Shown here in pieces: positions 584 through 63,990 of a stretch of DNA of 64,000 nucleotides; position 1 is the stretch's first letter, and each line of letters starts with the position of its first letter. The stretch is from Limnomonas spitsbergensis (lineage: Eukaryota > Chlorophyta > Chlorophyceae > Chlamydomonadales): positions 1,054,001 to 1,118,000 of the forward strand of contig JAYJMM010000079.1 in assembly GCA_037349105.1 (NCBI GenBank). Reading direction: 5' to 3'. A model generated the notes under the pieces. That model ran no database searches and was not told the origin of the DNA. It was given only the letters and a program-made list of their open reading frames with translations. Position numbers and translations under genes: made by a program.

Positions 584-3500
584 GACGCCGGTGACTTGAG
601 GGAGGAGGTGACTGCGGCGGTGCTCCTAGCAGCTGAGCGGATATGTCAGGAGTGGGATGAGGCGGTGGCGGCCGAGGCGGAAGCGGAGGCAGAGGCGGCG
701 GAGGTGGGTCGGCTGTCTAGGTCCTTGGCTTGTTTCAGGCATAGTAGCACAATCCGGCTTAACCTGTGCCGTACCTTGCCGTGTTGTGCTACCTTCGTAG
801 TACAATCCGGATAGATCTGGGCTGTATCATGCCGTTACGTGTTTGGTAGTACAATCACCCTACAATCCGGCTCCATCTGCGCCGTATCTTGCCATTTAGT
901 GCAATCTTGGTTCTACAATCCGGCTAAACCTGCGCCGTATGCAAGTGAAAAGCCAGCGACCCCCCTGGGCAAGCAGCCAACACACAGCCACAAAACAGTG
1001 GCAGGGAAATGAACCCCATACGGTAGATTTAATTTGCCTTCCCTCGGGTATGAAAATACGATTTTTGTAGTGCTGCCCTCAGGGAATATAATGGACAAAA
1101 AGTCGATAAGTTACGACTGAAACTGGCGTCGACGGTCGATAATTAGTAAATTCATGGATCACTCAACCCTAAAAACGTTAATTATGAGGGGAGGCAAATC
1201 AAATCTACAGGAGTGATGAACATAAGCCCCAATCATAAAACACGACTTGGGTGCAAAGGTGTCAAGTACAGCACCGCCTACAAAATTTAGGGAAAAGTCT
1301 GGATGTTTGGCGAACTTTTGAAATGCTTCCCCTTTTCAGCATACATCAAAGCCAAATCCTTGTCTGGCTTACGCCACTCTCCTTTCAGGCGCAACAATCG
1401 AGAACCCAGAAACGTGACATGAAAGAGGGAGCTTTCCATCCTGTGTGGACATGTGTGGACATGGTGATTCAGCCACTAGTCATGCGGGAATGGGTGGCGC
1501 CCTAGATCCGCCCCCCAGGGCCTGCCTTTAAATAAATGAATAATTAAACGATACACCCTGAGGTGTGGAATGAGGAAGCCACCCGTTCAGCCGTAGCACT
1601 AACTGAGCCTACTGACTGCATCTCTGTGCTCGAAGGAGCGCAGCGTCCTGTAATTTTTGCATCTGAGCAGCTGCTTGGTGTCTGCCCCCCCCTCTCCAGG
1701 CCTTGCTGGCCACTGGGAGCAGCAGCAGCAGCAGCAGCAGTAGGGCAACGCTCGACCCTGTCAGCAAGGTACCCGGCACTGCAAGCAGCAGCAACAGCAG
1801 CAGCGGCAAACCTCCATCCGCTGCTGTTGACACCAAAAGCGGCAAAAACAGCAAGAGCAAGAGCAAGAGCGGAAAGAGCAGGGGGCAATTGAGTGCGGCG
1901 TCGGGGAGAGGTTTCAACAAGAAGAGCTTTGTTGCGCCACCAGCAGCCATGAAACGGAGCTCAGAGAGACCGACTCTGCCTGTCGTGATCGTCGCATGCA
2001 GCGCGCAGTCGGGTAGGAGCATAGTTCCTTTTTTAATCAGGGCCCAGAGATGTTAACCCTAAACCTTAACCCTGAACCCTGAACCCGCCATGAAGCGGAG
2101 CTCAGAGAGACCGACTCTGCCTGTTATCTATCGTCGCATGCAGTGCGCAGTCAGGTAGGAACAGCTGTTCCTTTTTGAGCAGGGCCCAGAGATGTAACCC
2201 TAAACCTAAACCCTAAACCCGCCATGAAGCGGGGCTCAGAGCAAACAACTCTGCCCGTCGTGATCTTGACATGCAGTGTGCAGTCAGGTAGGAGCACTGT
2301 TCCTTTTTGAGCAGGGCCCAGAGATGTAAACGCCTAACCCTAAACCCTGAACCCTGAACCCGCCATAAAGCGGAGCTCGGAGAGACCGACTCTGCCTGTT
2401 ATCTATCGTCGCATGCAGTGCGCAGTCAGGTAGGAACAGCTGTTCCTTTTTGAGCAGGGCCCAGAGATGTAACCCTAAACCTAAACCCTAAACCCGCCAT
2501 GAAGCGGGGCTCAGAGCAAACAACTCTGCCCGTCGTGATCTTGACATGCAGTGTGCAGTCAGGTAGGAGCACTGTTCCTTTTTGAGCAGGGCCCAGAGAT
2601 GTAAACGCCTAACCCTAAACCCTTAACCCTGAACCCGCCATAAAGCGGAGCTCAGAGCGACCGACTCTGCCAGTCATGTTTTTCGCATGCAGTGTGCAGT
2701 CAGGTAGGAACAGCTGTCATGGGTCATGGGTCCAAGCTTTAACTCTCAAACCTCAAGCTGCTGTCAGCATGCACAGCATGGAGTGGCCGACTCTGCCCGT
2801 TATGATCGTAGCATGCAGTGCGCAGTCATGTAGAAGCAATGTTTTTTTCCGGCTACAAGTTTAACAGGCCGCCCAGCGGCGACCAAAAGCCCGATTAGGG
2901 CCAAACCTGGTTTGGTCCTAATTTGCTCTTGCCACCTATATCTGGTGGCAAGAGCAGCAAGGCTGGTTACAAATGGGCCCCCCGGCCAGCGGCCTGAGTG
3001 TAGCTGACATGTAGCTGAGTCCCGAAAAAAGAAGGATTGGGTAGGAGGGGCTGCTGTGTCATGGTTTAAAATAAAATCTGATCTCAAGTGGACAGCCTCG
3101 GTTCTTGAATGATGCAATCCTGAAAGCCTTGCAATCCCATTTGAAGAAGGGGGGGAAAAGGGGGGGGAAACTACGCCCCGTGGGGGCGTGAGAGTTCAGG
3201 AAACAGCGCAGCCTGGGCCGAAGCCGCGCCGTTCCTGTTGAAGAATCTCGCTGACCGCGTAGGTGTGGGCGTTCTCGATCTCCAGACTCCTGTCTTAGCT
3301 CTGCCTGGTTGCAGCAGTCAGGTTAAGTCCCTCCTACCAGTGCTTGTTTTTCGTGTCTCAGCTACATGTCAGCTACACTCCGGCCTCTGGCTGGCAGCCC
3401 CATTTGCAGCCAGCCGTGCTGCTTTGGCCACCAGCCGTAGGCCAGGCCAGGTTTGGTCCCAATGGGGCCTCTGACGGCCACGGGGCGGCCTGCTGATGGT

Positions 3501-6500
3501 GGCCTCGTGGCCGGTAAAGAAAGACTGCTTTAAAATTTGACTGCTTCTAAATTTGAAAGCAGTCTTTTGAATTCCGAGACCCTGAAAAGCTTACTGCCCC
3601 CAAGTATGGAATCATGCAAAACCCCATTGGTGTGGGCGTTCTGGATTTCCAAGCCTGACGATGGGGCAGTCAGTTGGAGGGTCTGTACTGCTGTGTGGCC
3701 ACAGGTGGGGAACACCTTCGCCTTTTTATGATTGAACTCCTGCAAAGTTTGAAGGCGAGGGAGTTCAGGATCTCCAGGCTAGAGCTCAGTGATACCTGAA
3801 AACAGCAATCGGAAGACCCACCACGTACAAGCTCTCGGACCTCTTAGAACCCTTTTAAAACCCCTTGAAACCTTTTATGACCTCTTATTTCCACTTAAAA
3901 CCTCTCAAAACCTCCAACCCCTCCAAAACCTCTTAAAATCTACTAACCCCCCTGAAACCTCTTGAAACCTGTTGACCCCCGTCTGAACCTCAGAAAAGCT
4001 CTTTAAGTCATAGAACCTCGCAAGCCCCCTGGAAACCCCTTAAAACCTCTTAAAACCTCTTAAAACCTCTTAAAACCTCGTCCATGCCCTTGTGGAATCC
4101 TGCAGATCGCATTTGTAGGTAAGGGCGTTATGGTGTGATGGACGTCCATGCTGCTCTCTATATTTCCTTAAAAAAGCAGTCGGGAAACGCACCTCTAAAA
4201 GGCATATTAAAACCTCGCCCCTTGCGTTGTGGAGCCCTGGTGGGAAACCTTTCACCGGCAGGACGAGAGGGCGTGTGCTGGATCATTGGGCTGCTCTCAG
4301 TATTTCTTTGAAAGGGCAGTTGGGAAACTTACCTCGGAAAACCTCGTTTGAAACCTGGATGCCCCTTTGTGCAAGCCCGGAAAGCTTTCACGTGTAAGAG
4401 AGAGCGTGCTGTATCTCCAGGCCTCGCTCTTTGTATCTCTTTGACAGCGGTCGGGTTATTCTATTAACCTCTTAAAATCTGGAAACTCACGAAATTTTCA
4501 TTCGTAGGAGAGGGCGTGCTGGACCTCCAGGCCTCTCTCTTTGCATTTCTTTGACAGCGGAAGGGTTATTCTATTTGCCTCTTAAAACCTGGAAACTTGC
4601 GAAATATTCACTCGTAGGAGAGGGCGTCCCATTTCCTTTTTCCTGCCCCTATTGGTTAGGCGCCCACGCGTCCGAGCATTTTTGAGCAGGGCCCAGAGGT
4701 GTAATCCCTAAACCCTAAACCCTAACCCTCTGACTTGTAGGTGAGGGCGTGCTGGACCTCCAGGCGGCTCTGAGAAAGGCTCTTGAGTTCAGGAGCAGGC
4801 CCGTAGCCCGACCTGTGGCTCCGCCAGCCATACAAGCGCGGCCGCGGCCTGTAGCCCAGGAGGAGGTAGACGATCAGGAGGTGGAGGAGGAGGCGGTGGA
4901 CGGCTTCGCCCTCGGAAGGCCACAGAAGGAGCTGGTGGGTGCAGCTTAGGGTTTAGGGTTTAGGGTTTCTCGGAAGGCCACAGAAGGTGCTGGTGGGTAT
5001 TGCGGGGTTCTACAAACTGGCCGGCGATCGGGGACTTTTACTTGGCCGAAGGAAAAAGAGGAGAGCTAGAGGGCCCTCCAGCGAGGCCGGGAAAAGGAAA
5101 AGGAAGCGTGGGTGTTCTCCCGCTGGGTCACGTTTTGGGCCGGAGGCCGGGGAATCTCCGTCCAGCTCCTATGATATCTCCTGTTGTTCCTCTTTCTAAC
5201 GCAGCTTGAGCTTCGTGGGTGTGCGACTGTGTTTGCCGATCATGTTTTGACTCGGATACAGAATTCTTCACCCTTTCACCATTGTGTCCTCTCCTTACCC
5301 TCCTCTCCTTACCCTCCTCTCCTTACCCTCCTCTCCTTACCCTCCTCTCCTTACCCTCCTCTCCTTACCCTCCTCTCCTTACCCTCCTCTCCTTACCCTC
5401 CTCTCCTTACCCTCCTCTCCTTACCCTCCTCTCCTCACCCTCCTCTCCTCACCCTCCTCTCCTTACCCTCCTCTCCTTACCCTCCTCTCCTTACCCTCCT
5501 CTCCTTACCCTCCTCTCCTTCACTTCCTTCACCCCTACACCCCCTTCACCCTTTTTCACCCCTCCACTCTCGTCCCTTTCTCTTTCTCCTCCCCTCCACC
5601 CTCCTCTTCTTCACTTCCCTCAAACCCCTTTTAGTTGTCCCCCGGTTTGCTCGGCTTGGCCCTTTCGCATAAGGCTGTGGGTGGTTGCGTTAACTTCGAC
5701 CTCCCCCCCCCCCTGGCTTCAACCTTCATTCCCTTTTTCACCCCCTCCACCCTCTTCCCCATCTCTTTCCTCGCCCCTCCGCCCTCCTCTTCTTCACTTC
5801 CCTCCCCTCACCCCCATCCCCTCACCCCCCTCTCCTGCCTTTGTCGTCCAGGTCCCTGCAACATCTTGTACAAGATGCTCTAGTGGCAGTCCAGCTCGTA
5901 CCAACGTCCCCCCCCCTTCCCTCCCCCCCCTCCCCTCACCCCCCTCCCCTCCCCTCACCCCCCCTCCCCTCACCCCCTCCCCCCCCCCTCTCCTGCCTTT
6001 GTTGTCCAGGTCCCTGCAGCAGAGATATCAGCAGAGGAGAGGTTCCTGATGGGCCTATCGGAGGAGGAGCTGATGCGGGTACGGACCAAATGCATGATCC
6101 TGATAAGGATCCGATTGGAATGAAGAAACGGACAAAGTGCATGATCCTGATGAGGATTCAATTTGAATGTAGAGACTGGCCAAATGCACGATCCTGATCA
6201 GGGTTCGATTGGGATTCAGGTATAGCCGAAATACAAAATCATGATAGGGATTCGATTGGGATGCAGTTTAAACAAAATGCATGATCCTGAAAGTGAGTGG
6301 ATAGGGGTGTCCTCAACTGCAGCTGTTTGCTTGACCCGCTTCTCCTGGCTCACCATTCAAAGCATCCAACCCTCCACTGCCCGCTCCCTGTGGACCACTC
6401 CCCATCCTCCCACTCCACGCTCTCCACTGCCCGCTCCCTGTTCACCGTTGTCCCTCCCCCTACTCCCTGCTCAACACCCATTACTCCTCCCTGATCACTA

Positions 6501-11900: not shown

Positions 11901-12596
11901 AGAATTTAATGCACGCCCAATCGAGGCGCTGCGATCATGCACAGGTGATGCAAAAAGCCTGGTAGGGCCGCATGGGGCGGGCAGCTCGAAGTCAGAGTGG
12001 CCGGGCTGATCGCATGCGGCCGTGGCTCCCTCCGGGCCCACACATGTGCAGACTCCAGAGGGGGACCGGCCGGCAGCCGAGGGGGCTGTGGCAGCCACAG
12101 GGCCATAGAGGCTGGGTGAGGGGGTGCCAGCAGCCGAGGGGGCTGTGGTAGCCACAGTGCCATAGAGGCCGGGCGAGGGGGTGCCAGCAGCCGAGGGGGC
12201 TGTGGCAGCGACAGTGCCATAGAGGCCGGGCGAGGGGGTGCCAGCAGCCGAGGGGGCTGTGGCAGCCGCAGTGCCATAGAGGCCGGGCGAGGGGGTGCCG
12301 GCAGCCAAGGGGGCTGCGGCAGCCACAGTGCCATAGAGGCCGGGCGAGGGGGTGCCAGCAGCTGAGAGGGCTGTGGCAGCGACAGTGCCATAGAGGCCGG
12401 GCGAGGGGGTGCCGGCAGCCGAGGGGGCTGTGGCAGCCGCAGTGCCGTAGAGGACGGGTGAGGGGGTGCCGGCAGCCAAGGGGGCTGTGGCAGCCACATT
12501 GCCATAGAGGCCGGGCGAGGGGGTGCCAGCAGCCGAGCCTGCGCATGTATTGGTGCAGTCCAAGAATTGAGAGGTGCATCGTAGACGGACGCACAC
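8934..12596 (-). CDS. Gln/Ala-rich low-complexity protein with possible C-terminal dsRNA-binding-like domain (gene A)
   Basis: The last exon, 9077-8934, has acceptor GGGCAG and ends in TGA. It joins in phase 0 to a long exon ending at 9618 (donor GAG|GTAAGCG). That exon is open upstream past the ATG at 10616 to at least 10800, with the same frame reading [13 protein letters not shown] before the Met. It carries two poly-Gln tracts, Ala/Pro-rich and Lys/Ser-rich parts, then [12 protein letters not shown]. The last exon reads [12 protein letters not shown] and then [13 protein letters not shown]. This helix-strand-helix order with a basic turn resembles a dsRNA-binding fold, but weakly. A further open stretch, 12596-11658, holds eight copies of a 20-residue repeat (core TPSPGLYG) and a Ser/Gly-rich segment. 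Between 11655 and 10900 the frame is broken by a TGA, a TAA and a 2-base deletion inside a 36-bp array, so this part is an intron or a decayed exon. The start codon is not determined. Confidence 0.5.
9252..9515 (+). mobile_element. MITE-1 copy in intron of gene A
   Basis: Starts TTCCTTTATTCCTGACTCAG, holds CAGCCGTAGGCC and GGTTTGGTCCCAATGGGGCC, and ends GTGAAAATAAACACT. Lies between A's last two exons. Next to A's donor at 9617 is a 6-bp array (GCGTCT/GCGCTT). Confidence 0.6.
10730..11760 (-). repeat. 36-bp array derived from coding sequence of gene A
   Basis: About eleven near-identical units at 11095-11495 and decayed units on both sides. On the minus strand the 12-codon unit reads [12 protein letters not shown] with no stop. 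Individual decayed units carry TGA (11655), TAA (about 11029) and small deletions. Confidence 0.75.
12060..12535 (-). repeat. 60-bp in-frame coding array in gene A
   Basis: Eight units encoding a 20-residue repeat around GTPSPGLYG followed by AATAPSAA. The unit is a multiple of three and all copies stay in frame, so selection on protein is plausible. Confidence 0.75.
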
Positions 12597-17023: not shown

Positions 17024-17053
17024 CAGCACCGCGGCCGATGTCCTGACACTCTG

Positions 17054-37300: not shown

Positions 37301-38240
37301 GCAGCGGCCCATGCTGCCCGGGCTACCTGCTATAGGCTGCCCCAGGTGTTGTCGCCGTTGGGCCTGACGGCCTGATGGGCCTAAGGGTTTGGGCCTGACG
37401 GGCCTGGGCCAGGGCCAGGGCCTGATGGCCTGGGCCTGACGGCCTGGGCCTGACGAGCCTGACGGCCTGGGCCTGAGGGCCTGAAAGCCAGGGCCTGAAG
37501 GCCGGGGCCACAGGGTGGTGTGTTCAAGGTGTGACCTCTCAGCAAAAAATAGAAACACCTGGCCAGTTACCGCTATGCCGCTCAAGCAGCTCCGCAGCCA
37601 GAGACATCTCCATGACAATGGTATAAGTGTTGGCTAGTTGTTGGTTGGTGGTTGGTTAGTTGGTGGTTGGTTGTTGGTTGCTGGTCTGTTCAGAGAGGTT
37701 GCTGTTGTACTGCTCGCTGTCCTTCTAAATTTAGAGCCTGGACCGGCACCTGTCCCCAAGCATGAAGTCTGATGCTCCTCTGGATTGCGAACATTTAAAA
37801 ATAATCACGGAGCCCCTGACACCCTTACTAGTAGTGGGCTAGTGCCCACCCAATCTCCACACCTTGTCACAAGTGCCCACCCAATCTCCACACCTTGTCA
37901 TAATTGCCCACCCAATCTCCACCCCTTGTCATAAGTGCCCACCCAATCTCCACACCTTGTCATAAGTGCCCACCCAATCTCCACACCTTGTCGTAAGTGC
38001 CCACCCAATCTCCACACCTTGTCATAAGTGCCCACCTAATCTCCACACCTTGTCACAAGTGCCCACCCAATCTCCACACCTTGTCGTAAGTGCCCACCCA
38101 ATCTCCACACCTTGTCATAAGTGCCCACCCAATCCCCACACCTTGTCAACAGCATCCACTTTGGCCCCTTGCGCCATCAGGAGCGCAATACAGTCCATAT
38201 GAGAGCGTGAGACGGCCCAGTGGAGGGGCGTTTGTCCCTC
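31371..38240 (-). CDS. Ankyrin-repeat exons of gene K
   Basis: Six exons are each exactly 99 nt, 33 codons, phase 0 at both ends, and each is one ankyrin repeat starting at the (D/E/M)GxTPLH turn: 38240-38142 (EGQTPLHWAVSRSHMDC), 36139-36041 (DGATPLHCAAANGHRLC), 34756-34658 (DGWTALHCAANRGHASI), 33626-33528 (EGRTVLHRAAEWGHTDC), 32558-32460 (MGQSPLNWAVRGGHKSC) and 32203-32105 (DGRTPLHWAAMKGQTEC). Exon 37159-37049 is a 37-codon repeat with a longer tail, and 36388-36335 adds 18 charged residues (AQVKADTAKINTG). The last exon, 31505-31371, has a half repeat (ASPLDMATEHRHKKIEGML) and a basic Ser/Lys tail to TAG. Ankyrin stacks bind partner proteins, so this part probably targets the kinase to substrates or a scaffold. 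Confidence 0.82.
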
Positions 38241-44200: not shown

Positions 44201-47200
44201 AAAGGGTGGCAATTTATACCTATGGTAGCCCAGAGCCCAGCAAATACTCTCAGAGGCTCAGGTAAAACATACAGGCTTTGCCGCTGTTTTCCAAGAGAAC
44301 AATACGACTTGACGTACCTATTTATAAGCTCTGTTACCATTGCTGCTACAAGGATATAATTATATAAACTTAAGTTTGGGTTTTCTGCACTTGGACTCGG
44401 GAGTTGCAGCCGCCCCCGTTGCTACGGGACTGCAGCTGTTTTTGAGAAACAAATACGCCTTCCCGTATCTTAAGCTCCGTTACCAGTATTTACATTTTTG
44501 TTTGGCATGCCCGCACCTGCAACGGAGAGTTGCTGCCTCCGTCATCGCTCCGAGACCGCAACCCATGGACGGTGCCGACGGAGGAGCGTTTCAAGGTCTC
44601 ACAAGAGTCTCCCACCCCACGACTGACATTCCCGCGGCCCGCATACACGTCATTTACACCTGAAGAGAGGAGCAGAGAGGTTCTGAGGGTGAGGAGCCCG
44701 AGGGGCAGGAATCTGAGGTGGAGAGGCCTCCTAAGATGAGCCATGCATGCTGGGCGCTCAGGAAGTCCAACACACAGCACACATAACATTGCGGCACTGG
44801 TGGTCGATGCTAAAGGACCAGTGCTGTTCCGATTACTGTCCTTACGGTCGCTACATTGAGTAGCTAAGTTTCAGCCACCGTAATTTTCAAGGCGAATTCA
44901 GCTGCTTTCACCCGCATGGAACCGTAACTGCTCGCACCATTTCTGAATTGTTAACTACTCGTTCTCATACACGATTGTTTGGCTTATATTTGTGAGGAAT
45001 CTGAGAGACGTGAAAAAATTAAGATTCGTTTATTGTTTTTTTCTTCTTGGTGACTTGCCAATGAATGTGGAAAAAACAATTTCCCAGTTTTTGGTTTACC
45101 GTACAACCGGATAGGGTTTGCGCACCCCCGATTTGAATATTTTAACAAATCGTCCGCGCAGCAAATTAAGCTATGTGTCCTCGCACCGCATTTTGCACAT
45201 TTACCGTGCAGCAGCCATTTTGAGCAAATAATTTTATTTCCTGAGCACGCAGCCATTAAGATCTTATTAATAAAGGTCCGCGCAGCTACAAACAAACCAA
45301 CTACGCGCAGGGTAGATACCGCCAGCTACAGGCCTTGGTCACGTGTTTTCTGGCAGAAGAAAAGGCCGGCTGCCCTGAACTGAACAGGCCTGCTAGATAG
45401 TGCTGCTAGATAGTCGACAGTGGCGCTATGCCGATATTTAGTACAGGTAATAAACGCTGTAAGCATAACACAGCGGTTACAGCCTGTGCCCCACGGCTAC
45501 AAGGCCAACTTAGACTGACCGCTCTGCGGCTGTTATAGGCCCGAATAGGACCTTACCTGAGCCGATGCATAACACAGCGCTTACAGCCTGTGCCCCCTCC
45601 CCTTAGTTGTAAACCCATCGAACCTAAAGCACGGTGACGAAAAGGGTTGCAACGCTGTGTGGCTCACTGGCATGGTGCACCGGATCCACTGGCATGGTGC
45701 ACCGGATCCACACCGGATCTACGACATATGTGCATGAGAGGTCCTGGCAGTATCGGCCACAGAGGATGTGGGTGCATTTATTAAAAATGGAATAAATAAA
45801 TAATTTACAAAATAAAAGACATGTACAGATGCTCCCTCTGCAGCCGATACTACCAGGACCTCCTCTCAGCCATCAGCAGCCGATCGGCCGTGATTCCCAT
45901 TTATAAATTATCCTGCATCACCTTGTTTCTCGCTCCCGTTGGACAGCGCGTCCGTGGCCAGCGGGGGTACCTCATTACCGCCGCCGCCGTCGGCTGTGTG
46001 CCGCCGTATGCTGTTGCGGCGGCTGCCAGGCTGGCTGCCTGGTTGGCTGCCAGGCTGGCTGCTGGGCTGGCTGTTGCCACGGCTGCCAGCACGGCTAGTC
46101 AATCTTGAGTCATGCCCATAATTCCTGAGCGACTGAGGATGAGCGGGGGGCGGGTAGGTTAAGTGAGTGAGCGGCTTGGACGGGGTACACAGAAAGTGGG
46201 GTGGGACTTGGGATGGGTTGGGTTAGGGTGGGGTGGGGTGGGGCGGTGTACAAGCAGGGTGAGATGGAATGGGGTTGGGTTAGGGTGGGGTGGGGTGGGG
46301 CGGTGTACAAGCAGGGTGGAATGGAATGGGGTTGGGTTAGGGTGGGGTACGGCGGGGTACAAGCAGGGAAGGGTGGGGCGGGGTACAAGCAGGGTAGGGT
46401 GGGGTGGGGTGGGGTGGGGTGGTGGATGGCGCAGGGAGTCAAATCCACTCCTTGGTTCTTGACCTAGGAGTGTGAACAACCAGAAATGGAATGCCTGGAA
46501 TGTGTGAACACATGCAACACATAAATCTAACTATATAAGCATTTGTGGAGACAAACATGAGGATCTGACAATGTGTGGATACAGGTATACGGATTCATGA
46601 ATGTGTGGAGGCAGGGATGAGGATCTAATAATGTGTGCACATGCAACACATGGGTATAAGCATGTGTAGAGATGGGGATGGAAATATAAGACTGTGTGGA
46701 GACAGGCATGAGGATCTGCCAATGTGTGGAGACAGGCATGAGGATCTGACAATGTGTGGAAACAGGCACGAGGATCTGCCAATGTGTGGAGACAGGCATG
46801 AGGATCTGCCAATGTGTGGGGACACACATGAGGATCTGCCAATGTGTTGGGACCAGTACGAGGACCTCTGAATGTGTGGAGACAGGGATCAGGATCTAAT
46901 AATGTGTGGAGACAGGGATGAAGATCTTTGAAGGTGTGGAGAAAGGGATGACGATCTAGGCATACATGGATCTATTTCCCCTCCGACCGTGGGCAGCCAT
47001 TGCCATGTCAGGCCTTGCTTACCTCCACCAGTTGCTTGGCAGTGGGCCTGCAGGCTGGGTCATAGCTGAGGCACCGCTGAAGCAAGGAGGCTAGGGGCAT
47101 GCGATCTGGTAGGACGGGGCCCTGCTTCTCTACGTACACCTGGTGAGAAAGGTATGAAAATAGCAATGTGTGAATGGTGTGGACATACGGGGGGGCAGGG

Positions 47201-50200
47201 GCATTTACCATCAGGGAGCCTAGGGGCATGCGATCCGGGAGAACGGGGCCCTGCTCTTCTACGTACACCTGGTGAGAAAGGTATGAACATAGCAGGTCTT
47301 GGAAAGGTATGAACATGTCAGAGTGTGAACGGTGTGGACAAACGGAGGAGGCGTGTGAACAGGCTCCCGCATACACCACTGGTTATGTGGACGACTTAAG
47401 GGGCAGGTGGCATATCGCCGCAAGGTATATGTGGGACAGGGCCTAAAGGGGCTGGGATGGAACTCCCCATGGACGCCATGGAAGCCTGTGTCATATCATG
47501 GTATATCGTGCTACCCTGGAAGCACAATCCAGCTGAATCTGTGGTATATCATGGTGTATTGTGTTACCCTGGTAGCTTAATCCGGCTCAGCCTGTGCCGT
47601 ATTGTGGTGTATCGTGCAACCTTGGTGGAACTATCAGGCTACACCTGTGCCGTATTGTGGTGTATCGTGCAACCTTGGTGGAACTATCAGGCTACACCTG
47701 TGCCGTATTGGGGTGTATCGTGCAACCTTGGTGGAACTATCAGGCTACACCTGTGCCGTATTGTGGTGTATCGTGCAACCTTGGTGGAACTATCAGGCTA
47801 CACCTGTGCCGTATTGTGGTGTATCGTGCAACCTTGGTGGAACTATCAGGCTACACCTGTGCCGTATTGGGGTGTATCGTGCAACCTTGGTGGAACTATC
47901 AGGCTACACCTGTGCCGTATTGTGGTGTATCGTGCAACCTTGGTGGAACTATCAGGCTACACCTGTGCCGTATTGTGGTGTATCGTGCAACCTTGGTGGA
48001 ACTATCAGGCTACACCTGTGCCGTATTGGGGTGTATCGTGCAACCTTGGTGGAACTATCAGGCTACACCTGTGCCGTATTGTGGTGTATCGTGCAACCTT
48101 GGTGGAACTATCAGGCTACACCTGTGCCGTATTGGGGTGTATCGTGCAACCTTGGTGGAACTATCAGGCTACACCTGTGCCGTATTGTGGTGTATAGTGC
48201 AACCTTGGTGGAACTATCAGGCTACACCTGTGCCGTATTGTGGTGTATCGTGCAACCTTGGTGGAACTATCAGGCTACACCTGTGCCGTATTGGGGTGTA
48301 TCGTGCAACCTTGGTGGAACTATCAGGCTACACCTGTGCCGTATTGGGGTGTATCGTGCAACCTTGGTGGAACTATCAGGCTACACCTGTGCCGTATTGT
48401 GGTGTATCGTGCAACCTTGGTGGAACTATCAGGCTACACCTGTGCCGTATTGTGGTGTATCGTGCAACCTTGGTGGAACTATCAGGCTACACCTGTGCCG
48501 TATTGGGGTGTATCGTGCAACCTTGGTGGAACTATCAGGCTACACCTGTGCCGTATTGGGGTGTATCGTGCAACCTTGGTGGAACTATCAGGCTACACCT
48601 GTGCCGTATCATAGTGTATCGTGCAACCTTGGTGGAACTATCAGGCTACACCTGTGCCGTATTGGGGTGTATCGTGCAACCTTGGTGGAACTATCAGGCT
48701 ACACCTGTGCCGTATTGTGGTGTATCGTGCAACCTTGGTGGAACTATCAGGCTACACCTGTGCCGTATTGGGGTGTATCGTGCAACCTTGGTGGAACTAT
48801 CAGGCTACACCTGTGCCGTATTGTGGTGTATCGTGCAACCTTGGTGGAACTATCAGGCTACACCTGTGCCGTATTGTGGTGTATCGTGCAACCTTGGTGG
48901 AACTATCAGGCTACACCTGTGCCGTATTGGGGTGTATCGTGCAACCTTGGTGGAACTATCAGGCTACACCTGTGCCGTATTGGGGTGTATCGTGCAACCT
49001 TGGTGGAACTATCAGGCTACACCTGTGCCGTATTGGGGTGTATCGTGCAACCTTGGTGGAACTATCAGGCTACACCTGTGCCGTATTGTGGTGTATAGTG
49101 CAACCTTGGTGGAACTATCAGGCTACACCTGTGCCGTATTGGGGTGTATCGTGCAACCTTGGTGGAACTATCAGGCTACACCTGTGCCGTATTGGGGTGT
49201 ATCGTGCAACCTTGGTGGAACTATCAGGCTACACCTGTGCCGTATTGTGGTGTATCGTGCAACCTTGGTGGAACTATCAGGCTACACCTGTGCCGTATTG
49301 TGGTGTATCGTGCAACCTTGGTGGAACTATCAGGCTACACCTGTGCCGTATTGTGGTGTATCGTGCAACCTTGGTGGAACTATCAGGCTACACCTGTGCC
49401 GTATTGGGGTGTATCGTGCAACCTTGGTGGAACTATCAGGCTACACCTGTGCCGTATTGTGGTGTATCGTGCAACCTTGGTGGAACTATCAGGCTACACC
49501 TGTGCCGTATCATGGTGTATCGTGCAACCTTGGTGGAACTATCAGGCTACACCTGTGCCGTATTGGGGTGTATCGTGCAACCTTGGTGGAACTATCAGGC
49601 TACACCTGTGCCGTATTGTGGTGTATCGTGCAACCTTGGTGGAACTATCAGGCTACACCTGTGCCGTATTGGGGTGTATCGTGCAACCTTGGTGGAACTA
49701 TCAGGCTACACCTGTGCCGTATCATGGTGTATCGTGCTGCCCTGGTAGCTCAATTAGGCTACACCTGTGCCGTATCATGGTGTATCGTGCTGCCCTGGTA
49801 GCTCAATTGGGCTACACCTGTGCCGTATCATGGTGTATCGTGCTGCCCTGGTAGCTCAATTGGGCTACACCTGTGCCGTATCATGGTGTATCGTGCTGCC
49901 CTGGTAGCTCAATTGGGCTACACCTGTGCCGTATCATGGTGTATCGTGCTACCTTTGGGGTATGATCCGGCATTACTTTTGCCGTGCTGAGGTGTATTGT
50001 GCAATCTGCTACCCTGCTGGATGCTAGTAACCATAAGCCATGAACATTTGAACAAATGTTGAAAACTCTGAAAACATAGAAGCAATTTGCATCTCTTTAG
50101 CATGATGGAAGGGCACATCAGGAAGAGGTGACCCTAACCACTTGACGGTTGAGGGGTGTGGGGTGTGGGGTGTGGGGTGTGGGGTGTGCTGCCTGATATT

Positions 50201-53200
50201 GTTGGGTTTTAATAAACACCCTAAAGCTCGAACCGGGACCCCCAAACCAGGCCTGCCAATGTAGTTATACCGGAAGCCCGTGTGTGAAGCAGACCGTTCA
50301 CACTTGCCTTGCCAGATGCATTACAGAAGGCACAGAATAGGATGAACGGCAATCAAGTTCCCACCTTGATCGAAAGTTGTGTGGTGCTGACGCAGCCGTT
50401 GTCGGGTACATTAATTGCCCTACCCTGAGCACCCTAATCCTTAACCCTAAAACTCTCCACCCTAAAGCTTCCATACCTTAATCATTCCATATCTCCTCCC
50501 TAAAACCCTTCACCCTAAAGCTTCCATACCTTGAGCATTCCATAATTCAACCCTTAAGCCTTCCACCCTAAACCTTCCATACCTTGGGCATTCCATACCT
50601 CCACTCTTAACCCTTTTCCATTTACCACACCTTAATAATCATTTGCATTGGGTTGAGGCCGGTCATCGTCAGGTACCATCGCCCCACCATGAGTACCCTT
50701 AACCTTCAACCCTAATCCCAAAACATAAAATCATAAACCTAGACCCCTTAACCTTGACCCCTAGAAACCCTCACCTTAAAACGCTGAAACCTAGATCCCT
50801 TTACCCCACAACCTATACCCCTACACTCTTCATCATCAAACGCTGAAACCTAGATCCCTTTACCCTACAGCCCTAGACCCTACCTTGAGCATCATTTGCA
50901 TTGGGTTGAGACCAGCCATGGGCGCCTGGTTGGACACCATGTGGATCATGGTGCATGCAAAATGCACGCAGCATGGTGCACGCAGCATGGTGCACGCAAC
51001 ATGGTGCACGCAACATGGTGCACGCAGACCCTACCTTGAGCATCATTTGCATTGGGTTGAGACCAGCCATCGGCGCCTGGCCGGACACCATGTGGATCAT
51101 CGTGCACGCAAACGCCCATATATCAGCGGCAGGCCCCACCACACCCTCCTCGCACATCTGCTCAGGAGCCCTGAATCAGGGGCACGAAATGCACCATGCG
51201 GATCAATGCACGAAATGGGCAAAATGCTCGAAATACATGAAGCACGAACTGCACGAAATGCATGCAGCAAGAAATGGACCATGTGAATCAATGCACGAAA
51301 TGCACGAAATGCATGAAGCACGAAATGCACCACGTGGATCAATGCACAAAATGGGCAAAATGTCTTTGCTTAGAGTACACAAAGTTAGACGTAGGTAACG
51401 GCACGGATGTGACTTCAGCCCAGGCTGCGCTGTTTCCTTAACTCTCACGCCTCCCATGGGGCATGGCTTTCTTCCTTCATTTAGAGGCAGGAAGGGCACA
51501 TGAGCAACAAGCACTCGCACGACCGCAAGAGGATCCTCGTGTTCGTTAAGGCAGACAGACATCCGAAGCAACAGGGCCCACCAAAGCACCAAACCCTCCT
51601 AAACTGCAGATACACTTTATTTGAATTCAAAACTGTTCTTGTGGTCTTCCCAATCGCTTATGTTGAGCTCCCTTTCATCCTCACCACCACCCACTCCCCG
51701 ATCGCTCATTTAGGACCCCACTTCTCTTACCCACCCATTTTGAAACACACACACGTTTGTGTAACGAAATCAAAATAACCATCCAAACGCACGTTCATCT
51801 GTAGGTGCCCTTGCAGCTGGTCTGTCTAGTCTCCCCAATAGCCTATTAACAAACACCCCCCTCCCCCCCTCCCCCCACTCCCCCCTGTCTACAGCTCACA
51901 AGTACTTGTTGTTGCCTTTGCAGCTGGTCTGTCGAGTCTCCCAGATTGCTTAATGAGAGCCACTTTTCCCCCTCCCCCTCCCCCCCCCCTCCCCCCCCTC
52001 CCCCCCTCCCTCCCCCTTCCCCCTCCCTCCCCCTTCCCCCTCCCTCCCTCCCTCCCTCCCCCTTTCCCCCTCCCCCCCCCCCCTTCCCCCCTTCCCCCCG
52101 TCCTGCAACACACGTGTACTTGTTGGTGCATTTGCAGCTGGTCTGTTAAGTCTCCCAGATAGCTCATTGGGAGCTTATTCCCCTTCCCCACCCCTCCCCC
52201 CCATCCAACGCTACCAGCCACCGCACATGTAGCTGTAGGTGCCCTGTCAGCTGGTCTGCAAAGTCTCCCAGATTACTCATTGAGACCTGCTCTCCTCCCC
52301 CACCCCTCCCCCCCCATCCAACGCTACCAGCCACCGCACATGTAGCTGTAGGTGCCCTGCCAGCTGGTCTGCAAAGTCTCCCAGATTACTCATTGAGACC
52401 TGCTCTCCTCCCCCACCCCTCCCCCCCCATCCAACGCTACCAGCCACCGCACATGTAGCTGTAGGTGCCCTGCCAGCTGGTCTGCAAAGTTTCCCAGATT
52501 ACTCATTGAGACCTGCTCTCCTCCCCCACCCCTCCCCCCCCATCCAACGCTACCAGCCACCGCACATGTAGCTGTAGGTGCCCTGCCAGCTGGTCTGCAA
52601 AGTCTCCCAGATTACTCATTGAGACCTGCTCTCCTCCCCCACCCCTCCCCCCCCATCCAACGCTACCAGCCACCGCACATGTAGCTGTAGGTGCCCTGCC
52701 AGCTGGTCTGCAAAGTCTCCCAGATTACTCATTGAGACCTGCTCTCCTCCCCCCCCCACACACACCCTTCCAATGCTACCAGCCACTGCACATGTAGATG
52801 TAGGTGCCCTTCCAGCTGGTCTGCAAAGTCTCCCGATCCCTCATTCTGCCCCCCTCATCTCTCTCTCCCAGCCCCTCTTCTCTCCTTCCTATACGCACAT
52901 GTAGTTGTAGGTGTCCTTGCAGCTGGTCTGCAAAGTCTCCCCAAGACCCCGAGGGCTCATCCAAAACCCGTTAACGTAGATTTAATTTGCTTTCCCTAGG
53001 GCATCAAAAACGAATTCTTTTAATGCCGCCCTCAGGGCAGACTGTCATCAAAAACTCTTAATTTTCGACCAAAACTGGCGTGGACGAACGATAATTAGAA
53101 AATTCATGAATCCCAAACAACATTAATTATGAATGTAGGCAAAGCAAATCGACAGTATCTCCATTTCTCCCTTCTCCCCCTCCCCCCCTTTCTAATACGC

Positions 53201-56200
53201 ACATGTAGTTGTACGTGCCCTTGCAGCTGGTTTGTTAAGTCTGCCAAATGGCTCATTGAAAACGAATTTTCTCCCCCTCCTCCCCCCTTCGGACAACGCA
53301 CATGTAGTTGTACGTGCCCTTGCAGCTGGTTTGTCGAGTCTTCCCGAGGGCATTGCTGACGATGCGACTGATTCCAAAGTCGGCCAGCACTGCAGAACCT
53401 TGTTTGGTGATGAGAATATTTTCCGGCTTGAGGTCGAGCACCTGAGGGACAGGGGAAAGGTACAGAGGCAAAGTTCAAGGGGGTGAAGTACAGGGGTGGG
53501 ATCAGGGAACATTCTCCGGCTTGAGGTCCAGCACCTGAGGTACATGGGGTAAAGTACAGAGGCTTAGTACAAGGGGGTGTCAAAGTACGAGGGTGGGATG
53601 GGAGGATTCCCGGCTTGAGTCGCAGCACATGAGGTACATGGCTGTACATGGCTGATGTACATGGCTGTACATGGCTGAGGCACAGTGCTCCAGGACAGCG
53701 TTGAGATAGAAGGGTGCCCTGCCTGGAAATGAGAACAAAGTACAGCTTAAGACCCAGAACCTGCGGTACAGGGGTGTAGTACACGGGGGGGAGGGTCGGG
53801 TACAGGAGTGTAGTACATGGGGGGAAGGGTCGAGTACAGGGGGTGAAGTATATGGAGGGAAGGGTCGGGTACAGGGGTGTAGTACTTGGGGGCCAGGGTC
53901 GGGTACAGGGGTGTCGTACATCGGGGGAAGGGTCGGGCACAGGGGTGTAGTACATGGGGGAAGGGTCGAGTACAGGGGTGTAGTACTTGAGGGGGGGGGT
54001 CTGGTACAGGGGTGTAGTACATGGGGGGAAGAGTCGAGTACAGGGGTGTAGTAGTTGAGGGGGAGGGTCTGGTACAGGGGTGTAGTACATGGGGGGAAGG
54101 GACGGGTACAGGGGTGTAGTACATGGGGGGTGGGGGTAAAGAGATAGGCTCAACAGGGGGGGTATATGGCGTGTAGTGCATGGGGGTGAGGCACATGTGT
54201 GTAGTACATGGGAGGTGATGTATTGAGGTGTAGTGCATGGTTAGGCGGACATCCAGTGCCGCATTTTGTGTTATGCCACCAAACTATTGCCATATCTTCA
54301 TCCGCACCCCCTAGGTTATGCAGCACTGACAACCCAGACCAGAGACTATCTGCCCCTGACCCTAAACCCTTAACCCCTGCCCCCCTTAACCCTAATCCCC
54401 TGACCCCCAAACCCCTGCCCTAACCCTAAGCTCCCTTCACAATGCCCGCATCGTAAGCCCCAGAAGTTGAACAGCTCTGAAAACCCTCTCCAGGACCATC
54501 AGGAAACATACTGCTTTAAAAATCATAACTCCCAGAAGTTGTACGGCCCTGAAAACCCTCATCCACCCCCCAGATGATGTACAGCCCTTAAAAACCCTCA
54601 CCAGGACCCCCAAGCTGTATTGGTCTGAAAACTCTCATCACCCCCCTAGAAGTTGTAATGTTCTGAAAACCCTCACCATGAACCCCAAGTTGTACAGCTC
54701 TGACAACCCTCACCAAACCCCCCAAAGTCGTACTGCCCTAAAATCCTCACCAGGACCCCCAACTTGTACTGCTCTGAAAGCCCTCATCATGACCCCCAAC
54801 TTGTACTGCACTGAAAGCCCTCATCGTGACCCCCAAGTTGTACAGCTCTGATAGCCTTCACCATGGCCCCAAGTTGTACTGCACTGAAAACCCTCCTCAC
54901 GACCCCCAAGTTGTACTGCTCTGATAGCCTTCACCATGACCCCCATGTTGCACAGCTCTGACAACCCTCACCATACCCCCCAAAGTCGTACTGCCCTAAA
55001 ACCCTCACCAGGACCCCCAACTTGTACTGCACTGAAAGCCTTCATCATGACCCCCAACTTGTACTGCTCTGATAGCCTTCACCATGACCCCCAACTTGTA
55101 CTGCTCTGATAGCCTTCATCATGACCCCCAAGTTGTACAGCTCTGAAAGCCCTCATCATGACCCCCAACTTGTACTGCTCTGAAAGCCCTCACCATGACC
55201 CCCAAGTTGTACTGCACTGGAAGCCCTCATCATGACCCCCAACTTGTACTGCTCTGAAAGCCCTCACCATGACCCCCAAGTTGTACTGCACTGATAGCCT
55301 TCATCATGACCCCCAAGTTGTACTGCTCTGATAGCCTTCATCATGACCCCCAAGTTGTACAGCTCTGAAAGCCCTCATCATGACCCCCAAGCTGTACTGC
55401 TCTGATAGCCTTCACCATGACCCCCAAGTTGTACTGCACTGGAAGCCCTCATCATGACCCCCAACTTGTACTGCTCTGATAGCCTTCACCACGACCCCCA
55501 AGTTGTACTGCACTGATAGCCTTCATCATGACCCCCAAGTTGTACTGCACTGATAGCCTTCATCATGACCCCCAAGTTGTACTGCTCTGATAGCCTTCAT
55601 CATGACCCCCAAGTTGTACTGCTCTGAAAGCCCTCATCATGACCCCCAAGCTGTACTGCTCTGATAGCCTTCACCATGACCCCCAAGTTGTACTGCACTG
55701 GAAGCCCTCACCATGACCCCCAACTTGTACTGCTCTGATAGCCTTCACCATGACCCCCAACTTGTACTGCACTGGAAGCCCTCACCATGACCCCCAAGTT
55801 GTGCAGCTCTGAAAACCCTCACCAGGACACCCAAGTCGTGCAGCTCTTGAAGGCCTATAGCCACGTCTTTAGCGATGTCCACTGCATGGCCGCGTCTCAG
55901 CTTCATCTCTGAAGGGTAGGGCCACGGCTGGGTGTTGCAGGTGTTGCAGGTGTTGCGAGTGTTGCAGGTGTGAAAGGGCCAGGACAGGTATGATAGGGGA
56001 AATAGGTGGTGTAGATGGTGTATGTTGGGCAGGGGGGGTAGGGGGGGCAGGGGGGGTAGACGGGGACAGGGGGGGTAGGCGGGGGCAAGGGGGGGCAGGG
56101 GGTAGGCGAGGCAGGGGGGGCAAGGGGGACAGGGGGGGTAGGCGGGGGCAGGGGGGGTAGGGGGGGTAGGCGGGGGCAGGGGGGGCAGGGGGTAGGCAAG

Positions 56201-59200
56201 GCAGGGGGGGCAAGGGGGACAGGGGGGGTAGGCGGGGGCAGGGGGGGCAGGGGGGGTAGGCGGGGGCAGGGGGGGCAGGGGGGGCAGGCGGGGGCTGGGT
56301 GGGCAGGGGGGGCAGGGGGGTAGACGGGGGCAGGGGGGGCAGGGGGGTAGGGGGGGCAGGGGGAGCAGGGGGGCAGGGGGGCAGGGGGGGTAGGGGGGCA
56401 GGGGGGGCAGGGGGGGCAGGGGGGTAGGTGGAGGCAGGGGGGGTAGGTGGAGGCAGGGGGGGTAGGTGGGGGCAGGGGGGGTAGGTGGGGGCAGGTGGGG
56501 GCAGGTTTTGCAGGTGTGGCAGGGCCAGGGCAGGGCCAGGGCAAGGGGGTGGTAGGTGGGGTAGGTGTTGCAAGTGTTTCAGTTGTTGCACGTGGGGCAG
56601 GTGTTGCAGGTGGGGACAGGTGGTGGCTAGGGGTACAGGGTGGGCAGGGGTGACAGGTTGGAGCAGGGGGGATGACTAAGATGGCGTATGAGGTGGATTC
56701 AAGTTGGGGGGGGGGGGATTAAAACCATGTCACAGCTTATCTCTGAAGGGTGGGGACAGGGTGGGTGGGAGACGAGAGACAGCCAATGACATGGATACGA
56801 GGGAGGGAGGATAGGAGCCACGTTTCCCACTCCCCACACCCCTTGTTTGTCCACACTTTTGCACACACACTGTTTCTGTACACACTCTTGCCCACACCCC
56901 TTGTCCGTCCACACCCTTGCACACACCCCTTGCCTGTCCACACCTTAGCCCACACCCCGTGTCTGGTCACACCCGCACCCACACCCCTTGTTTGTCCACA
57001 CCTCAACCCACACCATGTGTCCATTTACTCCCTCACCCACACCCCTTGTTTGTCCACACCTTTGCCCACACCCCTTGCCTGTCCACACCCTCACCCACAC
57101 CCCTTGCCTGTCCACACCCTCACCCACACCCCTTGCCTGTCCACACCCTCACCCACACCCCATGCCTGTTCAGATCTGTAGCCCCACTTTTCAGTCCCAC
57201 TTTTCAGTCCCACTTTCCAGCTCCACTTTTCCACACCTGGCTGTTGCAGGATGAGACCCTCTAGACTGCATGGGTACAAGTTCATGACGATGCAGAAGCG
57301 GTCTCCTTTCTGCAAGCAGCAGCAGCAACAACAGTAGGCAGGAGGGACAGCGGGATGCAATCAGAAGCAGAAGCGGTATATTTTAGCAGCGGCAACAACA
57401 GGCGGCAGCAGAGGAGGAACTGTTGGATCTACTGTGTCTGCTGTATCTTGTGGTTCTGATGGATCTGATAGATCTGCTAAAAAATCTCTGATGCTGGTTA
57501 TGTTCTGATCCATCCTGAATGATTCCTAGACCGTGCCTGGCGAGCACGACAACCACAGCCACTTCAGCCCTCCCCCATTCCTCTATGCCCACACCTGTGT
57601 TCTTCTGGGTCTACTGGGTCTACTGGATCCAGTAGACCCAGTAGATCCATCGTACTTCAGATTGAACTACTGGGTCTACTGGATCTGCTCAGGGGGCGAA
57701 ACCTCTACTCAACACCACCACCTGCGTGATTCCTACCTTTGCAGGATCTGCTGGATCTGCTGGATCTGCTGGATCTGCCAGATCTGCTGGATCTGTTATG
57801 AGGACGCAGTACCTGGTACTTGCCGTCACCTGCGTGATCCCGAGATATTGGCAAATGTGATTCCTAATTCTGCTGGATCTACTAAATCCACTGGATCTAC
57901 TGGATCCACTGGATATGCCGGATCTGCTGGATCTGTTCCTAGGACGCCACCCCTACTCGATGCCCCCACCTGCGTGATCCCAAGATATCGGCAGACGTGG
58001 TGGCACTGCCCCGTCACATGCATCAGCACCGCCAACTCGCGCTTGAGTGCCATGACCAGCGGCGCGTCCTTTCCGGAACTCGACGACGGCGACGCGGCAG
58101 CGAGCGCCGCCGGCCCCAGCGGCGGCTTGTTTTCCTTGCCACGCCGGCAGGCCGGCGCCGGGGACAGCTTGTTGCTGCAGGTGCTTCCCCTGGCGGAGCC
58201 GTCGGACGGTAGCTCTGCCAGGCTGCAGTTGAAGAGCTCCGCGGGTAGCTTGAATGTCTTGACTGCCACCTGGGGGGATGGGAAGGCGGAGAGGGGAGGC
58301 AGGCAGAGGCTGTGTCAACGATGGGTTGACCTGAAGCAAAGGCTTCCCTCCGGGGCAAAAGTTTCACTCAAGAGGAAAAGGCTTCCCTCCGGGACAAAGG
58401 CTTCCCTCCCGGGGCAAAGGCTTCCCTCCGGGGAAAAAGCTTCCCTCCCAGGGGCAAAGGCTTCCCTCCCGGGGCAAAGGCTTCCCTACGGGGAAAAAGC
58501 TTCCCTCCCAGGGGCAAAGGCTTCCCTCCCGGGGCAAAGGCTTCCCTCCCGGGGCAAAGGCTTCCCTCCAGCGGCAAAAGGCTTCACTCCCAGGGCAAAA
58601 GCGCTTTCCTCCCGGGGCAAAGGCTTCCCCACCCGGGGCAGGGCTTCCCTCCCGGGGTAAAGGTGCTTCCCCCCCGGGGCAAAGGCTTCCCTCCCGGGGC
58701 GAAGGCTTCCCTCCAGCGGCAAAGGCTTCCCTCCCGGGGCAAAGGCGCTTCCCTCCCGGGGCAAAGGCTTCCCTCCCGGAGCAAAGGCTCCCTCTCAGGG
58801 CTAAATCTCTTCCCTCCCGGGGCAAAGGTGCTTCCCTCCTGGGGCAAAGGCGCTTCCCTCCCGGGGCAAAGGCTTCCCTCCAGCGGCAAAGGCTTCACTC
58901 CCGGGGCAGAGGTGCTTCCCTCCCAGGGCAAAGGCGCTTCCCTCCTGGGGCAAAGGCTTCCTTCCCGGGGCAAAGGCTTCCCTCCCGGGGCAAAAGCTTC
59001 TCGCATATACCAGATCTCGAAGTATGAAAGGCATCACACATGATAAAAGCCTGCCTGGCACAGAGGCTTGCAGTGAACAAAGTCTCCCAAGAGCAAAGAC
59101 AACTGTTGCAACTGGTGCAACATGTCTCTGCCCACTCTAGTCACTGGTGCAACATGTCTCTGCCCACTCTAGTCACTGGTGGAACATGTCTCTGCCCACT

Positions 59201-63170: not shown

Positions 63171-63639
63171 CTGGTTAGTTCATGATGATTCAAGCATAGC
63201 CAATAGTTTAACCTTCAGAGTCACAAGTTCCCTAATGTATGCTACGATACCGTATGACCGGTCAGAAGATTATGCATCAGGGCACCAACATATGCAACAG
63301 TGGACCCGACCTCATTCGCCTGGCTCGTTAGGACCTCGGCCCAATCGTGACTTCAACCCTGTGAACTCATTGCCGCAGAGGTGCAGACTTGAAACCTCTT
63401 AATATTCCCCTGCATGCCGCCCCTCCAACTGATCACAGCCAGCACCAACACCAGCTACAGCCGCCATAATAGCCAAAATCAGCTACACGTGTGCCGTGTC
63501 CTGCCATCTGATGCTAACTTGGTAGCACAATCCCGCTTGGCCTGTGCCGTATCATGCCGTAAAGAGTTGTATCGTTCTACCCTGCCAGCCACATCGAATC
63601 ACTCGGAGGCTGAGTAAAAGGCATAACTTAAAACATGTA

Positions 63640-63990
63640 AATGGCTCCCCGACTGCTACCGCACCTGCATTTGCCTCCATGGCTGGATCTTGCACCAACT
63701 AACAAGGTACTAGGTCTATATCCCACCCCCCCTGCATGGTTCCCCGACTGCTGCCGCACCTGCATTTCATTGCATTGTTGGATCTTGCACCAACTAATGA
63801 GGTACTAGGTCTACATTGCAACAATTCAGCTCCCCTGCATGATCCCCAAGACCATGGTAGCACGATACGGCATAATACGGCGCAATACGGCACAGGTTCA
63901 GCCGGATTGCACTACCATGCCCAAGACCGGAAGACCCCAACTGCTGCCGCACCTGCAACCCCATCCATCACTGGATGCTGAACTAATCAA
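63640..63990 (-). repeat. Three likely donor-junction copies at window end
   Basis: Minus-strand GGTGCAAGATCCAGCCATGG plus AAATGCAG|GTGCGG occurs at about 63700, 63795 and in variant form at 63975. By analogy this marks an upstream K exon ending near 63957, but its frame could not be joined. Confidence 0.4.

Follow-up and report, generated by a model that had tools for sequence, protein, structure and literature searches.

Introns of the green alga Limnomonas spitsbergensis (Chlamydomonadales) often contain tandem copies of the very splice junctions that bound them, each copy including part of the adjoining exon. The structure was followed in a 64,000-nucleotide stretch, here called the window (contig JAYJMM010000079.1 of assembly GCA_037349105.1, positions 1,054,001 to 1,118,000), and in kinesin genes sampled from the rest of the genome. 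The copies are local, lie on the same strand as the junction they repeat, differ between paralogues, are concentrated in long introns and retain their splice dinucleotides as neighbouring positions are retained. The reading preferred here, with a probability of about 0.72, is that introns grow by repeated duplication in place, partly of their own ends. Segments, mostly of 50-250 bp, would be duplicated in place repeatedly along the genes of the alga. A duplication internal to an exon alters the protein and would be removed by selection, while one that is intronic or crosses a junction would leave the mRNA the same if the spliceosome keeps to the copy beside the intact exon. With the mRNA unchanged, introns would therefore grow, in part from copies of their own ends carrying 7-96 nt of exon (the overhang in 37 measured units).

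Frequency and locality of junction copies

The sample consists of 102 introns, with 204 junctions, from 30 genes: 13 introns of two window genes and 89 from 28 kinesin loci, its scope being one gene family plus the two window genes. Some counts refer to a first subset of 77 introns with 154 junctions (13 window and 64 kinesin introns). With a probe of 20 + 20 bases across the junction, a score of at least 36 and at least 8 bases matched on each side, a same-strand copy is present in the adjacent intron at 50 of the 204 junctions (22 donors and 28 acceptors). At that cut-off there are no opposite-strand copies at any of the 204 junctions, nor at any of the 154 in the first 77 introns. An earlier note on the letters of the window had proposed that junction matches would be enriched in the adjacent intron, and so it proved: 36 of 154 junctions have a same-strand copy in their own intron, whereas unrelated introns of equal length yield 0.13%, or 0.2 expected.

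That note had also ascribed such copies to every intron of the region. The copies are real; their extent was overstated, as at the fixed cut-off at least one is found in just 40 of the 102 introns (9 of 13 in the window and 31 of 89 in the kinesin genes) and none in the other 62. The window is unusually rich, with copies at 13 of 26 junctions against 37 of 178 in the kinesin genes. The pattern recurs elsewhere in the genome; in the sample it is seen outside the window and in 17 of the 30 genes. The nearest copy lies 48-834 bp away (median 101). It is the most similar one at 17 of the 27 junctions in the 77 introns that have at least two copies, and not at the rest, so that the supposed rule is a tendency. 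Even at the protein level exon-end copies are evident, as the kinesin protein profile detects them within introns on the donor side of L039 (seven), L044 (five) and L059 (eight), and on the acceptor side of L045 (five). A few arrays dominate the copy counts, e.g. the 4.5-kb intron 2 of L043 (C103) alone contributes 69, each a repeat of a ~70-bp acceptor unit. The AG has been lost from about 48 of them (30% keep it), and possibly one disarmed copy was later amplified.

The kinesin loci come from a genome search with a Pfam kinesin profile, 28 of the 40 listed stretches being used (20, then 8); a separate kinesin profile for the gene models was begun from up to 60 of 120 listed homologues and rebuilt from 25 together with the alga's own exon fragments. 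The models gave 64 + 27 introns with mostly good splice consensus. Introns 3 and 4 of L063, where array copies had been chained as exons, were dropped, and the donor of L059 intron 3 was reset to a GC donor; the donor search was for GT only and other GC donors may be misplaced. The models leave out exon pairs separated by fewer than 30 bases or by a profile gap of more than 12. Throughout, splice sites were assigned by homology, consensus and reading frame. Arrays with a period under ~30 bp are detected only via their later copies, so short periods are under-counted, and a period limit of 48 bp applies to the nearest-copy, dinucleotide-retention, unit-position and decoy-score counts. For the species as a whole the mean intron is 788 bp, with a mean of 6.7 exons per coding sequence (PMC11228838); the parts consulted of that genome paper make no mention of junction copies.

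The two window genes

Two of the five genes in which the earlier note had placed junction arrays, an ankyrin-repeat gene and a protein-kinase gene, were modelled from protein homology. In both, a single open frame runs over the joins and all introns are GT-AG.

31421..38200, minus strand: ankyrin-repeat gene fragment with Pfam Ank matches and 8 introns of 195-1284 bp; nine exons at 38200-38142, 37159-37049, 36388-36335, 36139-36041, 34756-34658, 33626-33528, 32558-32460, 32203-32105 and 31505-31421, with arbitrary outer limits for exons 1 and 9.
47023..58269, minus strand: protein-kinase gene fragment, its single exons under the curated cut-off for Pfam Pkinase, with 5 introns of 660-3895 bp; six exons at 58269-57970, 57309-57237, 55908-55823, 53441-53302, 51170-51035 and 47139-47023.

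Each junction of these genes was scored for a copy in its own intron against 20 draws from unrelated introns, and at 14 of the 26 a junction-spanning copy outscores all 20. Of the 17 cases that had been listed, eight fall in the modelled genes (37855-38141, 50440-51034, 51785-53301, 54460-55822, 31506-31785, 33627-34330, 34757-35570 and 53460-54245), and all eight carry a copy of the adjacent junction scoring above the unrelated draws, though at 50440-51034 the copy is mainly of the exon side, with ~9 nt of intron, and fails the rule that a copy span the junction. The features are as follows, with repeat arrays from Tandem Repeats Finder (TRF).

37841..38148, minus strand: 31-bp array (TRF) of ~10 copies of the ankyrin exon 1 donor junction, including the last 6 exon nt (GACAAG|GTGTGG); score 72 against at most 36.5 in unrelated introns.
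36290..36338, minus strand: 9-bp array (TRF) up to the ankyrin exon 3 donor (CCAG|GTG); score 30, under the counting cut-off.
34757..35570, minus strand: about four divergent copies of the ankyrin exon 5 acceptor junction, with minisatellites in between (sequence and junction test).
34415..34657, minus strand: two more copies by eye, one by automatic count, of the ankyrin exon 5 donor junction; score 54.
33627..34330, minus strand: copies of the ankyrin exon 6 acceptor junction in a unit of ~116 bp, plus a 31-bp array (TRF 33565-33928 and 33924-34247); score 108.
33393..33527, minus strand: copy of the ankyrin exon 6 donor junction; score 45.5.
31506..31785, minus strand: two copies of the ankyrin exon 9 acceptor junction; score 64.
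57740..57969, minus strand: copies of the kinase exon 1 donor junction (ACGCAG|GTG); score 59.5.
56729..56767, minus strand: one copy of the kinase exon 3 acceptor junction, ~840 bp upstream of the real one; score 54.
54460..55822, minus strand: 37-bp array of ~35 units (TRF 54536-55855) of the kinase exon 3 donor junction, 24 nt of exon and 13 nt of intron; score 76.
53442..53790, minus strand: three copies of the kinase exon 4 acceptor junction; score 84.
51785..53301, minus strand: about ten copies of the kinase exon 4 donor junction, with a 113-bp unit in the TRF part (52135-52845); score 92.
50360..51034, minus strand: about three copies by eye, one by automatic count, of the kinase exon 5 donor junction, mostly its exon side; score 78.
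47240..47294, minus strand: copy of the kinase exon 6 acceptor junction; score 94.
3240..4740, plus strand: several copies, by eye and without a homology-supported gene, resembling an acceptor and exon start at ~4741 (TRF 4387-4627).
4920..5000, plus strand: donor-like junction (GAGCTG|GTGGGT) with a single copy on its 3' side, likewise by eye and without a homology-supported gene.

Three further listed cases were judged by eye. Those at 3240-4740 and 4935 are clear copies, while the 110-bp array at 15427-15905, which ends at the acceptor of the first of two double-stranded RNA (dsRNA)-binding exons, holds copies that lack AG. At the listed positions 2013, 20930, 131-583, 21130-21295, 22300-22900 and 59777-62200 Pfam finds no domain, the plus strand of 20930-22900 lying outside the scans; TRF arrays are present at 1946-2717, 21104-21282, 22292-22887 and 59734-61599.

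Intron length and paralogues

The proportion of junctions with a copy rises steeply with intron length, from 1 of 82 in introns under 450 bp, through 7 of 36 at 450-600 bp and 13 of 36 at 600-1000 bp, to 29 of 50 above 1 kb, where 22 of 25 introns have at least one. Of the total intron length, 28% in the kinesin genes and 52% in the window is locally redundant, and self-matching coverage goes from 3% in introns under 300 bp (n = 20) to 80% in those above 1.5 kb (n = 4). The 77 introns average 707 bp and, collapsed to single copies, 458 bp. Redundant length and intron length have r = 0.94, a correlation that is partly built in.

Paralogues differ in their arrays. L059 and L060 are kinesin paralogues ~15 kb apart (C124), 94% identical over 247 bases holding the exon before a shared intron. 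In intron 3 of L059 the donor junction occurs nine times in a row with a period of 88-89 bp (~50 exon and 39 intron bases), and all nine copies read CAG|GCAAGT. L060 has that donor junction once, with GT, plus an extra acceptor-junction copy that is absent from L059. The same intron position is thus GC-AG in L059 and GT-AG in L060. Similarly, an 82-bp acceptor unit is present in about six copies in intron 3 of L045 (1126 bp) and is matched once in intron 4 of its paralogue L058 (541 bp). Most simply, the arrays would have formed once the genes had duplicated, and independently at either end of the intron, but an older array may instead have been lost in the partner. As paralogues share intron positions and not arrays, the introns are older than the arrays. 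Best copy-to-copy identity averages 0.885 over 24 arrays, with a few (in L043, L057 and L059) at ~99%.

Decoy splice sites

The suggestion that such introns are left with many decoy sites holds, as numerous intact splice-site copies remain in them. At a looser cut-off the 102 introns contain 106 copies of 30 donor junctions, the dinucleotide being intact in 85 (one donor being GC), and 182 copies of 35 acceptor junctions, 96 of them intact. Scored with a matrix from the real sites, 56 of the intact donor copies and 41 of the intact acceptor copies at least equal their real site, i.e. 97 of 181. Selection against the decoys has left no sign in the 77 introns, where retention of the splice dinucleotide is not below that of the dinucleotides beside it (donor p = 0.107, in the direction of higher retention; acceptor p = 0.70).

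Use of an intact copy in these 77 introns would lead to a frameshift or a stop in 115 of 129 cases (62 of 67 donor, 53 of 62 acceptor), and an in-frame, stop-free exon extension is possible for the other 14 (5 of 67 donor, 9 of 62 acceptor). If the coding frame is the guide, splicing would stay with the exon-proximal copy. Exon definition and intron definition are two modes of splice-site pairing (PMC3488318), and use of the exon-proximal copy is what would be expected where sites are paired across the exon rather than across the shortest intron; exon definition would then be the means by which these sites are picked. In intron 1 of L044 (C76) the donor copies have a 51-bp period and are in frame without stops, and could be a coding tandem repeat.

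Is the junction special?

Per non-redundant site, counting first occurrences only, 50 junctions have a copy against 22.1 expected from interiors, a ratio of 2.27 with a 95% bootstrap interval of 1.77-2.74 on resampling the 30 genes; the baseline for interiors is sensitive to the cut-off and to the first-occurrence rule, the ratio being 2.2-2.45 over cut-offs 32-44. In introns above 1 kb it is 2.94 (29 observed, 9.8 expected). Among the 43 introns of at least 600 bp the rate declines from 0.47 at the junction itself to 0.35 at a distance of 25-50 bp, 0.21 by 75-100 bp and 0.11-0.13 over 150-450 bp, returning to 0.20 at 450-700 bp, and on the exon side it drops from 0.45 to 0.10 within 60 bases. 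An excess at junctions over interiors, per non-redundant site, is therefore likely, and it is likely, though not proven, that a junction acquires or retains duplications at about twice the per-site rate of an intron interior. They may be mutational hot spots or their copies may survive longer. Part of the excess would come from the conserved exon half of each copy pair and from the real copy being undeletable; exon edges are perhaps also prone to breakage and fill-in repair.

Several results weigh against growth partly from intron ends. The raw duplication rate is equal at the junction and in the interior (0.245 against a mean of 0.233 per intron, Wilcoxon p = 0.62) and, pooled over positions, the interior copy rate of 0.408 is higher than that of the junction; because the raw junction rate is no higher than the interior one, a plain reading needs no junction effect, keeping in mind that the raw comparison favours the interior because each interior duplication yields two or more countable positions. 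The earlier idea that introns expand by junction duplication consequently stands as regards tandem duplication, in units that often span the junction, and fails as regards junction copies being the main source. Among the most similar pairs the excess dwindles at score 68 (9 observed, 6.5 expected), is gone at 72 (6 observed, 6.2 expected) and at 76, of a maximum of 80, is reversed (2 observed, 5.7 expected), all small numbers. Among simulations of substitution, tandem duplication, deletion and insertion, in which duplications confined to an exon were discarded and, with one set excepted, exons were conserved, and which covered part of the parameter space, three junction-blind sets with strong turnover gave ratios of 1.49-1.70 overall and 1.77-2.14 for introns above 1 kb. 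Finally, self-matching sequence is scarce (3-16%) in 5 of the 21 introns longer than 900 bp, so that some long introns must have reached their size in another way or have since decayed. The missing excess among near-identical pairs would be explained if the interior of an array were younger than its exon-side end, but the arrays did not bear this out.

Whether the excess reflects mutation or survival is finely balanced. Tandem duplication blind to junctions, followed by faster decay of interior pairs, which lack a conserved exon half and an undeletable real junction, has nearly an even chance of being the whole account. Weakened by the per-site counts and the simulations, it remains the main rival. 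The equal raw rates and the near-identical pairs speak for it, and the 1.49-1.70 attained by blind simulations under heavy turnover means that a large part of the excess could be due to survival. The remaining 13 blind sets, however, gave 0.87-1.41, and none of the 16 (0.87-1.70 in all) reached 2.27, nor 2.94 for introns above 1 kb where this was computed, whereas simulations favouring the junction gave 1.82 (3x) and 2.42 (5x), the 3x set having a distance profile peaked like that of the data; at ~90% identity, moreover, the excess persists (17 observed, 7.4 expected). More tentatively, at a little over one chance in three, exon edges may be mutational hot spots where breaks or nicks linked to transcription or splicing undergo fill-in and joining, so that the resulting tandem duplications centre on the junction. 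The rate does peak at the junction, on both sides of it and at both intron ends, and the exon part exceeds 60% of the unit in just 3 of 37 units against 26 of 81 blind-simulated ones, a marginal difference (Kolmogorov-Smirnov p = 0.045, Mann-Whitney p = 0.065). Fill-in at 3' overhangs with end-joining yields small tandem duplications in human and mouse cells (PMC8355091). The near-identical pairs without excess tell against a hot spot, as does the milder form of the excess that survivorship with turnover yields.

The remaining explanations fare much worse. That the arrays are coding, either as longer exons with tandem protein repeats or as alternative exon ends, is improbable: the 14 intact copies that extend the exon in frame and the 51-bp period in L044 would suit it, but the 115 that shift frame or add a stop would not, and 7 of the 9 open acceptor cases are from one array. 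Intron gain by tandem duplication of an exon stretch bearing AGGT is a little less probable again. Introns here do hold tandem copies with splice sites, and such an origin has been described in flies (PMC2891723) and potato (PMC4974935) and was proposed from amphioxus structures (PMC3087553), yet the predicted likeness of donor and acceptor flanks is found in just 1 of 94 introns (3 of 906 in the control) and paralogues have common intron positions with different arrays. Insertion of mobile repeats at junctions is very improbable. Introner elements occur in some algae and dinoflagellates, but cross-gene matches among 64 kinesin introns, all of one family, come to seven pairs, six of them paralogues at the same position and one of 38 bp, and the copies hold the gene's own exon sequence in one orientation only. 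Equally improbable is an assembly artefact from long noisy reads; the assembly did use PacBio continuous long reads (PMC11228838) and a few arrays are ~99% identical, but in most arrays the copies differ far more, the read L50 is 33 kb and short reads were used for polishing (PMC11228838). Copy number in the most uniform arrays could nevertheless be wrong.

Relation to known structures

Contrary to the supposition that no named process matches it, the structure has a counterpart in the 'mirages' of amphioxus, tandem duplications of the intron-exon boundary in the globin genes BflGb6 and BflGb9 (PMC3087553). In both, tandem units span the boundary and part of the exon (here at 50 of 204 junctions), lie at the 5' or 3' end of the intron (here 22 donors and 28 acceptors) and in many, not all, cases keep GT or AG (here 85 of 106 donor and 96 of 182 acceptor copies), the introns being otherwise ordinary. 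Mirage units are 10-160 bp, and the nearest algal copy is 48-834 bp away. Length instability between haplotypes is a further mirage character; the algal comparison is of paralogues, with nine copies in L059 and one in L060. The amphioxus cases concern a handful of genes, for which reverse-transcription PCR suggests normal splicing; in the alga the evidence on splicing is the reading frame, and the frequency, the dependence on length and the junction excess have been measured. In BflGb6 there is also homogenisation that excludes the edge of the cluster, while in the alga copies are closer to each other than to the real junction in just 4 of 24 arrays. In those 24 the best match of the real junction is the closer, 0.913 against 0.885 (p = 0.029), a comparison biased by the choice of copies for their likeness to the real junction. 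Edge-excluding homogenisation is treated here as an accompanying and not a defining feature of mirages, and the algal structures appear, by sequence, to have the defining features that were examined.

Zhuo is said to have reported in 2007 intron gain by tandem duplication, with human tandem arrays. In the Drosophila (PMC2891723) and potato (PMC4974935) examples, tandem genomic duplication with splice signals is involved, as here, but the algal introns pre-exist and lengthen, and their two flanks, donor and acceptor, do not resemble each other. Intronic minisatellites and satellite-filled giant introns in Caenorhabditis elegans (PMC4039745) and Drosophila (PMC6508621) are likewise tandem repeats within introns, though apparently, from what these sources describe, not copies of the host intron's own junctions. 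The small tandem duplications of break repair, by CST/Pol alpha-primase fill-in and end-joining, have the right form of mutation and are a possible mechanism only; in the account consulted they concern human and mouse cells and have no tie to splice junctions (PMC8355091). A literature search of titles and abstracts, mostly outside subscription journals, found no report of junction copies in algae or at genome scale. As the structure is already known as mirages, what is new is confined to the green-alga lineage, the measured frequency, the excess at junctions and the association with intron length.

Other features of the window

TRF arrays occupy 37.0% of the 64-kb window. A long uniform array with a 25-bp unit in ~121 copies (38498-41583) lies outside both modelled genes, and another, with a 53-bp unit in ~45 copies (47591-49955), is within kinase intron 5. 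The 36-bp array at 10790-11759 and the 57-bp array at 12069-12537 have long open stretches in several frames on both strands. The two dsRNA-binding motif exons lie at 13691-15457 on the minus strand (Pfam dsrm, E = 2.7e-13) and are probably from one gene. Scanning the window for tRNAs and with Rfam (gathering cut-off) gave no match, nor did a PDB search with one kinase exon, and Pfam on four other window stretches, covering part of the strands, gave just the dsRNA-binding domain and a sub-threshold TFIIA match.

Implications

Much of the excess length of long introns in this alga is locally duplicated sequence, and the duplications extend over splice junctions. The advantage of long introns in volvocines is unknown and the driver is likely ancient, according to a comparative genomic study of Chlamydomonas (PMC8226300). 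That tandem duplication in this alga, and perhaps in other long-intron Chlamydomonadales, has genuine hot spots at the junctions, with a trigger linked to the splice site (co-transcriptional splicing, R-loops or nicks, for instance), is a doubtful proposition, at about one chance in three. If it holds, introns grow from their ends and the genome contains thousands of natural tests of exon definition among rows of near-identical sites. RNA-seq and full-length transcripts exist for L. spitsbergensis (PMC11228838), and the arrays are a natural experiment on whether exon definition, and not site strength or shortness of the intron, chooses the copy. The occurrence of mirages in a green alga as well as in amphioxus suggests a general process, possibly hidden by annotation pipelines that mask tandem repeats. 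In the alga the structure is common enough that it could reveal how long introns come about and how splicing deals with strong decoys.

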